A stretch of 64,000 bases of DNA, from NCBI RefSeq assembly GCF_012912005.1, contig NZ_JABBEA010000013.1, positions 62,001-126,000 on the forward strand. The letters run 5' to 3'. Source of the stretch: Paenibacillus sp. SZ31. Lineage in GTDB: Bacteria > Bacillota > Bacilli > Paenibacillales > Paenibacillaceae. Position 1 is the stretch's first letter. Each line of letters begins with the position of its first letter. This document shows, piece by piece, positions 28,086-33,617 of this stretch. The position numbers were made by a program, and so were the translations under genes. Under the pieces are notes generated by a model. It was not told the DNA's origin and searched no databases. It was given only the letters and a program-made list of their open reading frames with translations.

Positions 28086-28223
28086 ATCTTCTGTCCTCCT
28101 TCTCCTCTTTATCTTGGTTCTATTTACATATATCGGATGTTAAGAGAAGGATTTGAATAGCTCTTGTTTCATCCCAATGGATTCATTTTACGTCGGTTGT
28201 ATTGCGTACTTCATCATAATAAT

Positions 28224-28238
28224 TGATAATGGTTATCA
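28224..28238. promoter_or_regulatory. Fur box upstream of the first AraC-lipoprotein frame
   Basis: TGATAATGGTTATCA fits the 7-1-7 Fur consensus TGATAATNATTATCA with one mismatch. It is 55 bases before the ATG at 28293, so iron repression of that gene is expected. Confidence 0.8.
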
Positions 28239-28292: not shown

Positions 28293-30254
28293 ATGTGGAA
28301 TGATTATTATATCCTCTGGAACTATGCTGCTGTGAGTATAACAGATATCCGATACATGGAATTTGGGGCATATGAGGAGATGAAATACAAATTTCCGACA
28401 AGTACATTTGTACTCACCATTCAGGGTGAGGCTGGAGTCACAATAGACAACAAAACGTATGAAGTGGACCGCTTTTATGTTCTCCATGGGGGAAAAGGGA
28501 GTAAGTTGGTTATTCAAGCCGGCGAGGCCGGATTACGCATGTATTACTTGATGTACAAAGCGAACCTGCCCAGTGGCGGGAGAAATGATCTGGGAAGGTT
28601 AATGGAGCGTATTAATCCGTTCCAGTTGAACTATGGGTTTAGCCCCGATACACCAACCATTCTATATGAGCAATTGAAGCAGATGCACTTTTTGTGGGAT
28701 CAAAAGAATCCTATTCAGCACTTTCAGGCCAAGAGTTTGTTCTATCCCTTTGTGGAGCAGATATCATCACAGATTCCTCGTGTATCCAATCGCTATCCGA
28801 GTATTGTGGATCAGGTGAGCAAAGTCATTGAAATTATAGAGTCCTCCTACACCAAGCCGCTTACGCTGCATGCTTTGGCAGAAATGATCGGCTTGAGCCC
28901 AAGGAGTTTGTCACGAAAGTTCAAGCAGTCGACCGGAACCAGTCCCATTGATTATCTGATTCAGTTTCGTTTGTTCAAAGCCAAGGAGATGTTGCTGCAG
29001 ACAGACGCCACGTTGGATGAGATCGCAGCAGGTATCGGTTATCCTGATGGATATTATTTGGGACGTATGTTCAAGAAACACACAGGTCTTTCTCCTTTGC
29101 AATTCAAAGAGAAGACCTCAGCACCTCTGTATTGGCCTGATCTGACATCAGGTGTGGCTCGAAATGACATTTTCAGAGGCGGAAGTGGAAGGTATGTTTA
29201 TAGTGATGGTGATAATCATTATCAATATAAGCATGGAGGGTCAATAAATATGAACAGACAGACAAGAACGGGAATGCTGCTTAGTATTTTACTAAGTCTT
29301 ACGTTACTGCTAAGTGCCTGCTCAACAGGTGTTGCCAGTAATTCGAGCGGAGATGCATCCGGAAGCAAAAGTGCGTCAAGTTCAACGAACACAGTAACAG
29401 CGGATAATCAAACCAAAACATCTGAACCACGTACAATTTCAACGGTGAAGGGAGATATTACAATCCCTGCTGAACCTAAACGGATTGTGGTTGACTTGTA
29501 TCTGGGAAGTCTGATCGCCCTGGGGATTAAACCTGTGGGTACACCGGAGATGAACCTGAAGAATCCATATTTTATCGAATCACTTGAGGGTGTGCAGAAT
29601 ATTGGTGAATATGAAACCATTTCTCTCGAAAAGGTGTTGGAACTTGAACCGGATCTCATTGTAACAGGTAATCCTGATTTATTTGATTCCTTTAGCAAAA
29701 TTGCGCCTACCTTGGTTGTTCCTTATGGCGAATTGAAAAACACCCATGAAGAGATCGCCTACTTTGGGGAAGTGCTGAATAAAGAAAAAGAGTCCGAGGC
29801 ATGGTTAGCAGATTATGACGCAAGAATTGCGGATGCCAAGAAACGCGTTGGTGAGGCGATTGATCCAGCAGCCGAGGTGTCGGTCATGCAGTTCTATGAT
29901 AAAGGACCGTTGGCCTTTGGTGATAATTTTGGTCGGGGAGGTCAGGCAGTCTATAGCGCGCTTGGTTTGAATCCTCCTGCAGATAAAAAAGAGATCTTAA
30001 TGAAGGATCAACTGGTTGAAGTTTCATCGGAAGCAATTCCTGAATTTGCCGGAGACTACATCATTCTAACAGCAGATAATCTGACCCTGGAAGAGTTGAA
30101 ATCCAAACCGGTCTGGAGCTCACTGGATGCGGTTAAGAATGATCGAGTGTTTATCTGGAGCCCGGATCGTTCATGGTACTTTGACCCGATTGCAACATTG
30201 GATCAGACCGAGGAATTGGCCGCGTGGTTTACGAAGTTATCTGGACAAAAATAA
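28293..30254 (+). CDS. AraC-family regulator in continuous frame with siderophore-binding lipoprotein, copy 1
   Basis: One 653-codon open frame holds two proteins. Residues 1-110 are a cupin-like sensor; about 165-280 form two AraC helix-turn-helix motifs (LHALAEMIGLSPRSLSRKFK, LDEIAAGIGYPDGYYLGRMF). After a 40-residue linker come Met320, a signal sequence with lipobox LLSAC (Cys343) and a periplasmic-binding fold (about 380-650) of the iron-siderophore class. The domain order recalls Bacillus Btr (YbbB), but Btr has no lipoprotein signal. A Fur box, SD and ATG lie inside the frame, so a separate lipoprotein is likely as well as, or instead of, a fusion. No permease or ATPase gene adjoins. 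Confidence 0.85.
   Translation: MWNDYYILWNYAAVSITDIRYMEFGAYEEMKYKFPTSTFVLTIQGEAGVTIDNKTYEVDRFYVLHGGKGSKLVIQAGEAGLRMYYLMYKANLPSGGRNDLGRLMERINPFQLNYGFSPDTPTILYEQLKQMHFLWDQKNPIQHFQAKSLFYPFVEQISSQIPRVSNRYPSIVDQVSKVIEIIESSYTKPLTLHALAEMIGLSPRSLSRKFKQSTGTSPIDYLIQFRLFKAKEMLLQTDATLDEIAAGIGYPDGYYLGRMFKKHTGLSPLQFKEKTSAPLYWPDLTSGVARNDIFRGGSGRYVYSDGDNHYQYKHGGSINMNRQTRTGMLLSILLSLTLLLSACSTGVASNSSGDASGSKSASSSTNTVTADNQTKTSEPRTISTVKGDITIPAEPKRIVVDLYLGSLIALGIKPVGTPEMNLKNPYFIESLEGVQNIGEYETISLEKVLELEPDLIVTGNPDLFDSFSKIAPTLVVPYGELKNTHEEIAYFGEVLNKEKESEAWLADYDARIADAKKRVGEAIDPAAEVSVMQFYDKGPLAFGDNFGRGGQAVYSALGLNPPADKKEILMKDQLVEVSSEAIPEFAGDYIILTADNLTLEELKSKPVWSSLDAVKNDRVFIWSPDRSWYFDPIATLDQTEELAAWFTKLSGQK
29210..29224. 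promoter_or_regulatory. Perfect Fur box inside the coding frame
   Basis: TGATAATCATTATCA is an exact 7-1-7 Fur palindrome, translated in frame as part of DNHYQY. It lies 25 bases before the internal ATG at 29250 and just upstream of that start's GGAGGG. Confidence 0.8.
29250..30254 (+). CDS. Iron-siderophore substrate-binding lipoprotein (internal start), copy 1
   Basis: ATG 29250 follows GGAGGG (29235-29240) by nine bases and begins a lipoprotein signal: basic MNRQTR, hydrophobic LLSILLSLTLLL and lipobox SAC with Cys24. The 334-residue product then has a Ser/Thr-rich tether and a type III binding-protein fold (ISTVKGDITIPAEPKRIV, ALGIKPVGTPE, LEPDLIVTGNPD, NFGRGGQAVYSALGL). Such proteins deliver ferric siderophores to an ABC importer at the membrane. 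The transporter must be elsewhere in the genome. Confidence 0.75.
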   Translation: MNRQTRTGMLLSILLSLTLLLSACSTGVASNSSGDASGSKSASSSTNTVTADNQTKTSEPRTISTVKGDITIPAEPKRIVVDLYLGSLIALGIKPVGTPEMNLKNPYFIESLEGVQNIGEYETISLEKVLELEPDLIVTGNPDLFDSFSKIAPTLVVPYGELKNTHEEIAYFGEVLNKEKESEAWLADYDARIADAKKRVGEAIDPAAEVSVMQFYDKGPLAFGDNFGRGGQAVYSALGLNPPADKKEILMKDQLVEVSSEAIPEFAGDYIILTADNLTLEELKSKPVWSSLDAVKNDRVFIWSPDRSWYFDPIATLDQTEELAAWFTKLSGQK

Positions 30255-30306: not shown

Positions 30307-30325
30307 GATAATGAAAATTATTATC
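30307..30325. promoter_or_regulatory. Fur box upstream of the second AraC-lipoprotein frame
   Basis: GATAATGAAAATTATTATC matches 17 of 19 bases of the classic Fur box GATAATGATAATCATTATC. Confidence 0.8.
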
Positions 30326-30443
30326 ATCTATAATGAGAGATATATTAGTGAACCTCTGCTATTCATATGTTATCGGATGTGTGGCAGAATGATGACCTTG
30401 TAAGGTCTTTGTTCCGGGTGAGGCTGGGATTGGAGAGTATTCA

Positions 30444-32420
30444 ATGCAATTAGACGAACAGATGAAATGCTGGAATCATGCCGCTGTTAAGGTTCTGGAT
30501 ATACGCCGGATCGTTATGGAGGCGGGAGCGCAACTGGATGCCTATACACTTCCGGCAAATGGTTTTATATATACGATTCGAGGATCGGCTCAACTTCAAT
30601 TAGATGGACAAACATACAAGGCAGAGCGATTTTACATGCTTCATGGGGCGAAAGGATCTTCACTGGATATTCAAACCAACGAAGATTTTGAATATATTCT
30701 GCTGTATTACAGAGCATTCCTTGCCTTTCCTAGTTATCGCAAAAAGTGGTTATTGGCACAGCCAGAGGTTGCACCGTTCTCTTTGCAATATGGATTTACG
30801 CCAAGTAGTCCACTTGGATTGTTACGTTACCTTGATGAGCTTGAGGATGCATGGGCACAGTCTGGCAGTTTGGATCTGCTTCATACGAAAAGTTTATTTT
30901 ACCAATTCATTCATGAAATAATGGTTCAGCTCGCAGAGCAGGAGATCAAAACAGAACTTGCTGATCCGGTGAAACAAACCCTTCGTTACATACAGAACCA
31001 TTACAGGGAACAGGTCACACTTGATTTCCTGGCTGAACAATTCAACTATAGCTCCCGGCATTTATCCATGCAATTCAAACGACAGACGGGTTACAGTCCG
31101 ATTGATTATTTAATTCAGACCCGAATCGCCAAGGCTCGCAATCTCCTTTTGCGATCGGATGCAACGCTGAGTGAAATTTCAGCAGAAGTGGGTTATTCGG
31201 ATGTGTATTATTTTAGTCGTATATTCAAAAAACATGTAGGGATCTCTCCGATTCTATACCAACGAAAGATGAGAGAAGAGTCGCGAAGAGAGGATCGTCC
31301 ATTGCAAATCTCTGAATCGTCCATTGGCCGGAGATGGAAGTCGGGATATATTGATTATGAGAATCATTATCAATATATAGACGGAGGGTCTACATCAATG
31401 AAAAGAAGAAAAACAAGTTCCAGTATGATCATGGTTGCATTATTGAGCATAACGATGCTCCTCGCAGCCTGCTCTTCAGGTACAGCAACAACAACACCAG
31501 CAGCTGGCGAAGGAACGGGTGCCAGTTCCAATAACAGCAGTACGGCAGTGTCATCGGACACGGGAAGCCAGACGAACAAAGACAATGAAACACGCACAGT
31601 CTCAACGGTTAAGGGTGACGTGGTTGTTCCAGCCAATCCCAAACGGGTTGTTGTATTGTATCTCCAGGGGGATGTCGTCGCACTTGGAGTTAAGCCAATC
31701 GCTACCTCAGATGTATATGACGGGGCTGCATACAAGAGTGAGCTTGAAGGTGTAAATGCACTGGGTACTTGGTTTGAACCGAATCCTGAAGCTGTTATTG
31801 ATCTTGATCCGGATCTGATTATCGTTCCTTCAGAAGAGACGTATACGTTATTAAAAGATATTGCACCTACGGTATATATTCCGTATGAAAAATTGTCTAC
31901 AGAAGAAAGACTCCATAGTATAGCGAGTATTTTTGGAAAAGAGCAGGAAGCTGAGACGTTAATCAATAATCTCAACACCAAAGTTGAAGAAAGTAAGAAG
32001 ACTCTTGCAGATGCAGGCATACTGGACAAAACTATCTCTATTGTGGAGGGCGGTTTGAAAGGTATGGTCATTGTAGAGAGCAAGCAATTTGGCCGGGGAT
32101 CTCAGGCGGTATATGAGTACTTGGGAATGAAAGCACCTGAAGTCGTACAGAAGAAAATTGATGTGGTTTCGGACGCAGCAGGCTCCAACATCTCCATGGA
32201 AGTACTTCCTGAATATATCGGGGACTATGTGTTTCGCTCGGTGTATGAAGGAGCAGATAACTTGACGGATAATCCAATATGGAGCAGTATCCCTGCGATC
32301 AAAGAAGGTCGTCTGATTGAGATTGATTTTGATTTCTTCTATTATTCGGATATTTATTCAATCAATAAACAACTTGATTTTGTCGTGGAAAAGCTGTTGG
32401 CGGCTCCAAGAGCACAATAG
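30444..32420 (+). CDS. AraC-family regulator in continuous frame with siderophore-binding lipoprotein, copy 2
   Basis: A 658-codon paralogue of the preceding frame with the same plan: cupin-like sensor (1-115), AraC DNA-binding domain (about 165-275; LDFLAEQFNYSSRHLSMQFK, LSEISAEVGYSDVYYFSRIF), an open linker, then Met319, signal and lipobox LLAAC with Cys343, the same residue number as copy 1. The binding domain ends near 655. Identity with copy 1 is moderate and the linkers have diverged, yet both stay open. ATG 30444 has a GGAG upstream. Role: probably iron-siderophore sensing and uptake, inferred from family and Fur boxes. Confidence 0.85.
   Translation: MQLDEQMKCWNHAAVKVLDIRRIVMEAGAQLDAYTLPANGFIYTIRGSAQLQLDGQTYKAERFYMLHGAKGSSLDIQTNEDFEYILLYYRAFLAFPSYRKKWLLAQPEVAPFSLQYGFTPSSPLGLLRYLDELEDAWAQSGSLDLLHTKSLFYQFIHEIMVQLAEQEIKTELADPVKQTLRYIQNHYREQVTLDFLAEQFNYSSRHLSMQFKRQTGYSPIDYLIQTRIAKARNLLLRSDATLSEISAEVGYSDVYYFSRIFKKHVGISPILYQRKMREESRREDRPLQISESSIGRRWKSGYIDYENHYQYIDGGSTSMKRRKTSSSMIMVALLSITMLLAACSSGTATTTPAAGEGTGASSNNSSTAVSSDTGSQTNKDNETRTVSTVKGDVVVPANPKRVVVLYLQGDVVALGVKPIATSDVYDGAAYKSELEGVNALGTWFEPNPEAVIDLDPDLIIVPSEETYTLLKDIAPTVYIPYEKLSTEERLHSIASIFGKEQEAETLINNLNTKVEESKKTLADAGILDKTISIVEGGLKGMVIVESKQFGRGSQAVYEYLGMKAPEVVQKKIDVVSDAAGSNISMEVLPEYIGDYVFRSVYEGADNLTDNPIWSSIPAIKEGRLIEIDFDFFYYSDIYSINKQLDFVVEKLLAAPRAQ
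31353..31372. promoter_or_regulatory. Fur box inside the second coding frame
   Basis: GATTATGAGAATCATTATCA matches 17 of 19 Fur-box bases and is translated as part of YENHYQY. TTGATT (31351) and TATATA (31374) flank it with a 17-base spacer like a promoter, but the start point would fall in the SD, so an internal promoter is uncertain. Confidence 0.7.
31398..32420 (+). CDS. Iron-siderophore substrate-binding lipoprotein (internal start), copy 2
   Basis: ATG 31398 lies nine bases after GGAGGG (31383-31388), the same spacing as in copy 1. The 340-residue product starts MKRRKTSSSMIMVALLS and has lipobox LLAAC (Cys25), a Thr/Ser/Gly tether and a binding-protein fold (VSTVKGDVVVPANPKRVVVL, ALGVKPIAT, IDLDPDLIIVPSEE, QFGRGSQAVYEYLGM). 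The binding residues differ from copy 1, so the ligands may differ. It could also exist only as the C-terminal part of the longer frame. Confidence 0.75.
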   Translation: MKRRKTSSSMIMVALLSITMLLAACSSGTATTTPAAGEGTGASSNNSSTAVSSDTGSQTNKDNETRTVSTVKGDVVVPANPKRVVVLYLQGDVVALGVKPIATSDVYDGAAYKSELEGVNALGTWFEPNPEAVIDLDPDLIIVPSEETYTLLKDIAPTVYIPYEKLSTEERLHSIASIFGKEQEAETLINNLNTKVEESKKTLADAGILDKTISIVEGGLKGMVIVESKQFGRGSQAVYEYLGMKAPEVVQKKIDVVSDAAGSNISMEVLPEYIGDYVFRSVYEGADNLTDNPIWSSIPAIKEGRLIEIDFDFFYYSDIYSINKQLDFVVEKLLAAPRAQ

Positions 32421-32521
32421 TGAAGAGCGAACTTGTTGATAGAAGTTTTGTACAAGAAATGTTTGTTTTTTAGCCATTGTAATTTGATAAGATTACCATT
32501 AAACTAGGATTTAAGTGATAA

Positions 32522-32536
32522 TGAGAATCGATATCA
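32522..32536. promoter_or_regulatory. Fur box upstream of the ferredoxin-NADP reductase gene
   Basis: TGAGAATCGATATCA matches 12 of 14 fixed positions of the 7-1-7 Fur consensus, 44 bases before the start. Confidence 0.65.
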
Positions 32537-32579: not shown

Positions 32580-33617
32580 ATGAATCAGCAGTTGGAACTT
32601 TATGATGTAACCATTATCGGCGGTGGCCCAGCGGGCATGTACTCTGCCTTTTATAGCGGCATGCGGGATATGAAGACCAAGTTGATTGAGGCACGTGACA
32701 GATTGGGCGGTCGCATGCTCTTTTATCCGGAGAAAATGATCTGGGATGTTGGAGGTGTGACGCCAATTCTATGTGAAGATCTGATCAAACAATTGGAAGA
32801 ACAGGCACGAACTTTCGAGCCAACGCTTGTATTTGAACAACAGATCGAAGGATTCGAACGTCAACCTGATGGCACGATTCTGTTAACTTCTGCAACAGGT
32901 GAACAACACTGGACACGTACTGTCATTTTGGCAATCGGTTATGGTATATATAAAATGGCCAAGCTGGAGCTTGAAGGTGCAGATCGTTATGAGGTGAGCA
33001 ATCTGCACTATACGGTGCAGGAACTCGAGCCATTCCGTGGTAAGCGGGTGCTGATCTCAGGTGGAGGCGACTCTGCTGTAGACTGGGCGAATGAACTGGA
33101 AGCACTGGCAGAGAAAGTTACGGTTGTGCATCGTCGTGACCGCTTTGGCGGGCTGGAGCGTAATGTACTGCGCATGAGAGAATCCTCTGTAGATATCCGG
33201 ACACCTTATGCGGTAGAGACACTGCATAGTTTGAGCGGCGATGTGATTGAGCAGGTGACCATTTCACACGTGGACACAGGTGAAACTGAACTGCTTGAAG
33301 TGGATGCTGTCATCGTAAACCATGGCATGAAGAGTGATTTTGGTCCAATCCGTGATTGGGGACTTGATCTTGGTGAATGGCATGTGACTACGACGGATAG
33401 ATTGCAAACGAATATTCCTGGCGTATTTGGCGCAGGCGATTTTGTAGATTATGGTAGCAAGCTGTACCTGATTGCGGGTACTTTCACGGATGCAGCCCTA
33501 GCGGTAAACAGTGCGAAGCTTTACATGGACCCTGAAGCGGAGAAAGTGGCTTATGTTTCTTCCCATAACAGTCGCTTTAAGGAGAAAAATAAAGCACTTG
33601 GTGTTGTAGAAGAATAA
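32580..33617 (+). CDS. Ferredoxin--NADP(+) reductase, thioredoxin-reductase-like
   Basis: The 345-residue flavoprotein has an FAD loop [19 protein letters not shown], an NADP loop [15 protein letters not shown] and the FAD end motif [15 protein letters not shown]. It lacks the CxxC of thioredoxin reductase, which fits the YumC/YcgT class. Bacillus subtilis ycgT is Fur-regulated, and a Fur box lies here too, so the enzyme probably supplies electrons for iron release from siderophores or iron-sulfur repair. ATG 32580 follows CGGAGGT. A strong terminator follows. Confidence 0.9.

Follow-up and report, generated by a model that had tools for sequence, protein, structure and literature searches.

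The window (the whole stretch of 64,000 nucleotides of Paenibacillus sp. SZ31 DNA that was analysed) bears two long ORFs in tandem on the forward strand, referred to as copy 1 and copy 2, each of which joins an AraC-type HTH (PF12833) to a siderophore-type binding protein (SBP; PF01497) in one reading frame (Table 1). The two copies are 35-38% identical. Pfam matches of copy 2 were obtained at residues 196-274 (HTH_18) and 413-629 (Peripla_BP_2). The earlier note had described an open AraC-lipoprotein frame in copy 2 and, common to both copies, an in-frame Fur box, a GGAGGG placed nine nucleotides before an ATG and a lipobox Cys at residue 343; each of these features was recovered, copy 2 being free of internal stops, and the linker was additionally found to hold an AraC-type direct repeat together with a -35/-10 pair. 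The same arrangement of AraC regulator, linker, lipobox and siderophore-type binding protein is present in 11 ORFs of this genome, 10 of which are uninterrupted, and copy 2 shares 31-38% identity with the other ten. The paralogue L006 (G000:C6:64060-65952) contains a TAG, which was rejected as a linker stop because it sits in the N-terminal domain; its linker and binding half stay open, so that it is either a sequencing error or a case in which the regulator half is broken and the nested lipoprotein retained.

Table 1. Coordinates in the window of the two tandem ORFs and of the elements located upstream of and inside them.
Feature	Position	Strand	Remarks
Fur-like box upstream of copy 1, TGATAATGGTTATCA	28223..28237	+	
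Copy 1, long ORF, 653 aa	28293..30254	+	same arrangement as copy 2
Copy 1, half-site 1, TGACAT	29143..29148	+	
Copy 1, half-site 2, TGACAT	29165..29170	+	
Copy 1, -35-like TTTTCA	29170..29175	+	
Copy 1, -10-like TATGTT	29193..29198	+	22/22 ortholog-set sequences
Copy 1, in-frame Fur box TGATAATCATTATCA	29210..29224	+	15/15 match; pS = 0
Copy 1, Shine-Dalgarno GGAGGG	29235..29240	+	9 nt before ATG 29250
Copy 1, nested lipoprotein gene	29250..30254	+	Met320, Cys343
Fur-like box upstream of copy 2, TGAAAATTATTATCA	30312..30326	+	14/15 match to 7-1-7 box
Copy 2, long ORF, 658 aa	30444..32420	+	cupin-like N-domain, AraC HTH, promoter-bearing disordered linker, lipoprotein signal peptide, siderophore-type SBP
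Copy 2, AraC-type regulator half	30444..31268	+	N-domain about 1-170, HTH 171-275
Copy 2, AraC-type half-site 1, ATCGTCCATTG	31294..31304	+	22-bp direct repeat; synonymous sites frozen among orthologues
Copy 2, AraC-type half-site 2, ATCGTCCATTG	31316..31326	+	same basis as half-site 1; overlaps -35
Copy 2, internal -35-like TTGGCC	31324..31329	+	most fusions have TTGnnn with a 17-bp spacing
Copy 2, internal -10-like TATATT	31347..31352	+	codons Tyr302-Ile303; identical in 39/39 ortholog-set sequences
Copy 2, in-frame Fur-type box TGAGAATCATTATCA	31358..31372	+	read as ..ENHYQY..; one mismatch to 7-1-7 box
Copy 2, internal Shine-Dalgarno GGAGGG	31383..31388	+	9 nt before ATG 31398; GGA GGG in 39/39 sequences
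Copy 2, nested lipoprotein gene	31398..32420	+	internal ATG (Met319), lipobox LAAC with Cys343, E449 and E586

The 3' half of each ORF can be read as a transport lipoprotein gene. Signal peptide and lipobox are kept in 52/52 diverse fusions (including Lysinibacillus, Cohnella, Clostridium, Scatolibacter and Hungatella), and 50 of the 52 have an ATG, preceded by a Shine-Dalgarno (SD) sequence, at a distance of 20-24 codons upstream of the lipobox Cys. The strength of the SD is only slightly higher than in a synonymous null (4.73 vs 4.33), as GG codons are already dictated by the amino-acid sequence. A hydrophobic helix is predicted at residues 325-343. Both E449 and E586, which we take to be the permease-docking Glu of the two lobes by analogy to FeuA and BtuF, are found in all 52 fusions and in 50/50 and 49/50 stand-alone SBPs, unlike the Btr-type domains discussed below, which have no signal peptide and carry these residues in only 3/12 and 4/12 cases. 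Concerning the stand-alone Fur-regulated lipoproteins FhuD, FeuA and YfiY (PF01497), the fusions resemble them in the lipobox, the SD-ATG spacing and both putative docking Glu, and a PF01497 match, a lipobox and a signal peptide of proper length from a start codon with an SD characterize the nested product as an SBP lipoprotein; solved structures among its sequence relatives are 3hxp and 3g9q. Unlike these stand-alone siderophore-binding lipoproteins, the nested gene forms the in-frame 3' part of its own regulator gene and, with no upstream stop before it, is not free-standing. Judged from its sequence, the locus is best described as a fusion and at the same time a nested, separately promoted lipoprotein gene, and not as a simple fusion protein.

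The elements of the internal promoter come in the order of the second half-site over the -35, a 17-bp spacer, the -10, the Fur box, the SD and the ATG. The distance from half-site to -10 is rigid, and the distance from -10 to Fur box as well as the total distance vary by whole codons. In 35 non-redundant fusions, the self-match at an offset of 22 is 0.636, compared to 0.20-0.30 at all other offsets between 13 and 41 and to 0.362 +/- 0.020 (maximum 0.414) in a synonymous-recoding null. Since 22 is not a multiple of three, the direct repeat cannot be a protein repeat; AraC-type proteins use about two helical turns between their half-sites. The repeat of copy 1 differs in sequence from that of copy 2 and has the same 22-bp spacing. 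The -10 reads TATATT or TATAAT in 23/35 of the non-redundant fusions, and the features of a sigma-A promoter are present together, with -35 and -10 at about 17 bp, an adjacent direct repeat, a Fur box near the start site and conservation at the DNA level. We infer that the AraC half binds the 22-bp repeats. Allowing up to 3 mismatches, the exact operator pair of copy 2 occurs only once in the 6.5 Mb genome, and the 3' half of the same gene therefore seems to be the chief target of its AraC half; a loose operator-plus-promoter pattern gave 43 genome-wide matches vs 17 in a reversed control, a modest excess in which no clear extra targets were seen.

Substitution patterns indicate what is conserved in the linker. 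In the 39-sequence ortholog set of copy 2, synonymous divergence (pS) is about 0.55 in the N-domain, the HTH, the signal peptide (0.54) and the binding protein, and decreases to 0.31 in codons 276-301 of the linker, to 0.11 in codons 312-318 (SD) and to 0.000 in codons 302-311 (Fur box). Copy 1 (22 sequences) presents values of 0.46-0.47 in the N-domain, the HTH and the binding protein, 0.24 in the linker and 0.000 in Fur codons 307-312. The earlier note had expected both a depletion of stops and a constraint on the amino acids of the linker; the former was found, as described below, while the latter was not, since the dN/dS of 0.54 in codons 276-301 of copy 2 is due to suppressed synonymous changes. 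Constraint at the amino-acid level was rejected as the source of linker conservation, because it is the synonymous sites that do not vary and because a repeat period of 22 is not divisible by three. The linker is conserved as DNA, that is as operator, promoter, Fur box and ribosome-binding site. In the AlphaFold model, residues 287-327 are predicted to be disordered between two confident halves, so this segment can carry a DNA code at little structural cost.

Comparison with known regulators leads to Btr (YbbB) of Bacillus subtilis, an AraC-type one-component regulator of feuABC with a FeuA-like sensory domain. Like Btr, the fusions have an N-domain, an AraC HTH and a Peripla_BP_2-type C-terminal domain (PF01497) in one protein. 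Copy 2 matches the Btr entry NF049932 along residues 41-278 only (E-value = 1.3e-33) and scores 116.4 bits, far under the equivalog cut-off of 900 bits, and the fusion family was therefore not filed as Btr. Unlike Btr, whose cytosolic C-terminal domain follows the HTH directly, the fusions have a linker of about 45 residues, a signal peptide and a lipobox after the HTH. They also differ in bearing a promoter inside the ORF, before their own 3' half, and in having one binding protein instead of two, with no separate SBP gene downstream; in the Btr-type loci examined, the regulator ends with a stop, an intergenic region with a half-site, a -10, a Fur box and an SD follows, and a separate binding-lipoprotein gene comes next.

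No stop interrupts the linker in any of the 52 diverse fusions, nor in the 56 linker-spanning loci of our family survey (8 genera; 9 loci from the SZ31 genome), counts that rest on one genome per species and on a small clostridial set; the phylum-wide profile search scored four candidates per genome and gives presence only. In 75 congeneric genomes, 38 full orthologues of copy 2 were found (70-99% identity), none with a stop. Copy 1 is present in 24 genomes, every time without a stop. When the 35 non-redundant linkers are read in frames 0, 1 and 2, stops appear in 0, 29 and 35 sequences, respectively. The two ortholog trees contain 374 linker substitutions; at the exact positions that were hit, these should have produced 17.4 nonsense changes, against an observed count of zero (P about 3e-8). 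As a control, 47/47 stand-alone binding-lipoprotein genes have an in-frame stop at most 44 codons upstream, among them all 31 that carry a Fur-like box. The stop-free linkers, the nonsense depletion and the upstream stops of the stand-alone genes support selection for an unbroken linker frame, in agreement with the earlier note, which had preferred selection to chance in spite of the ancestry that the two copies share; chance absence of stops and shared ancestry alone were both rejected on the basis of the nonsense depletion. The earlier note had regarded indels that are not multiples of three in the linkers of relatives as evidence against the fusion; the length changes encountered are codon-sized only, across genera and into the clostridia.

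The clostridial members (L049, L050, L053, L056, L059 and L087, from Clostridium, Scatolibacter and Hungatella) keep the open frame, a -10-like hexamer, the SD and the lipobox, and a recognisable Fur box is absent from them; the Fur box as sole cause of the openness was rejected, because these members are open without it. Paenibacillus hemerocallicola L080, considered as a case of a frame-breaking linker, was also rejected, as its frameshift (a pseudogene or an assembly error) lies just 3' of the lipobox Cys and its linker is open. L149 (G037:C6) is an orthologue of copy 2 that has been truncated to a frame of 451 codons, although its own tandem partner is intact. In the distantly related L183 (G280:C114:11962-13848), from another family, a TGA immediately behind the HTH splits the locus into an unfused AraC gene and a following binding-lipoprotein gene, so the fusion is not strictly needed.

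One alternative takes the locus as two ordinary genes, with the lipoprotein promoter overlapping the 3' end of the regulator gene, the missing stop being incidental and the long protein having no role. The internal promoter, SD and ATG alone would account for the lipoprotein, L183 is split, and in Btr-type loci this promoter occupies a genuine intergenic gap behind a stop; the nonsense depletion, the absence of stops in all 52 fusions and the in-frame-only length changes, which extend across genera and into clostridia devoid of the Fur box, speak against this reading and make it quite unlikely. The opposite reading takes the long protein as the only important product, a polyprotein that would be inserted in the membrane, lipidated and cut at Cys343 by Lgt/Lsp, yielding AraC and lipoprotein at 1:1, with an internal promoter that merely boosts expression. 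It draws on the selection on the frame and on the strong signal peptide and lipobox of all the fusions, but an SD and an ATG conserved as DNA at the exact signal-peptide length would be unneeded, and we know of no cleavage after a cytosolic domain of about 320 residues; we consider it unlikely.

The two halves of the fusions do not share one history. Nearest neighbours differ between the regulator half and the binding half in 31/34 members. Copy 2, for instance, is 55% identical to L032 in the regulator half and only 31% in the binding half, while its binding half is 58% identical to that of L073. In topology tests on groups that were picked after the identities had been seen, the pair L001 and L032 (support of 98 on the regulator tree) was rejected on the binding-protein tree (p-AU 3e-109), as was the clostridial clade (4e-5), which is united in its regulator halves. 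Two tests in the opposite direction, with clades of the binding protein imposed on the regulator tree, fell short of rejection. Co-evolution of the two halves is weak (r 0.20). Conflicting phylogenies of the halves were noted for L001/L032/L073, L039/L058/L002 and L049-L087 (A2 alignment). Paralogues have thus exchanged halves, which meet at the promoter-bearing linker, and such swapping fits a binding half that would be both sensor and receptor.

The swapping bears on a further explanation, in which the fusion is a tethered AraC protein similar to ToxR, only the anchor is selected via read-through, the N-terminal cupin-like domain is the sensor and the SBP is a passenger. The fusions would share with the ToxR/CadC class (PMC10269533) a cytoplasmic DNA-binding domain, one membrane segment and an external sensor. 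They differ from it in their AraC-type DNA-binding domain, in having a lipoprotein signal as membrane segment and what would be a transport SBP as sensor, and in a nested promoter that would release this sensor as a protein of its own; the cited survey of transmembrane transcription regulators makes no mention of AraC. No description of a nested-promoter AraC-SBP fusion was found in the open-licence papers searched, and an earlier one may exist elsewhere. A frame that must reach the signal helix and an N-domain that is well folded in the prediction agree with the ToxR-like explanation. Nevertheless, if the N-domain were the specificity sensor, the swaps would mismatch sensor and receptor, and Btr itself senses with its FeuA-like domain (PMC9609785); we regard this explanation as very unlikely.

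We favour instead, as moderately probable, a dual-output, Btr-like gene, with the long AraC-anchor-receptor as sensor and the short, Fur- and AraC-controlled lipoprotein as receptor, so that a single piece of DNA probably encodes both the sensor of the regulator and the receptor for uptake. Transcription from the upstream promoter, which has a Fur-type box to itself, would give the long protein, consisting of the AraC half, the flexible linker, the hydrophobic signal/anchor and the siderophore-binding half. This protein would act as a Btr-like one-component sensor, whose C-terminal binding protein reads the ferric siderophore. Low iron would lift Fur from the box over the internal start site, and the gene's own AraC half, once the binding half is loaded, would switch the internal promoter on, which would then provide many copies of the stand-alone lipoprotein feeding a siderophore permease. 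Both the long and the short protein are presumably made; Btr homology and the swapping suggest that the SBP half is the sensor, and its loading would activate transcription. For the long form, anchoring in the membrane with an external SBP is more likely than a cytosolic location, and cleavage by Lsp at the lipobox may separate the halves. We give even odds to a widespread design of this kind, with a single SBP coding region used as sensor domain by an AraC regulator (probably tethered to the membrane) and, from the AraC/Fur-controlled promoter within the ORF, as a free lipoprotein, the binding half being a plug-in cassette; swapping such a region would change both specificities at once.

Many foreign siderophores are pirated by Gram-positive soil bacteria, and the number of such receptors per siderophore cluster is highest in Paenibacillus (about 29:1; PMC13293324). 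A self-sensing receptor gene, if true, would explain how many receptors are regulated specifically, and new specificities could be gained in one recombination. The linker is also a clear example from nature of a complete regulated promoter, with operator, -35/-10, repressor site and ribosome-binding site, inside an ORF kept open by selection, and the 22-bp operators constitute a ready list of candidate regulator-target pairs. Annotation as one 650-aa AraC protein hides a transport lipoprotein. The expansion extends beyond the genus of the window, as G408, a genome from another genus of the family, contains eleven linker-spanning fusions. Finally, directly downstream of the tandem pair, a Fur-like stretch TGATAATGAGAATCGATATCA (window positions 32516-32536) precedes a thioredoxin/ferredoxin-reductase-like gene (32580-33617), which is possibly an iron-siderophore reductase.
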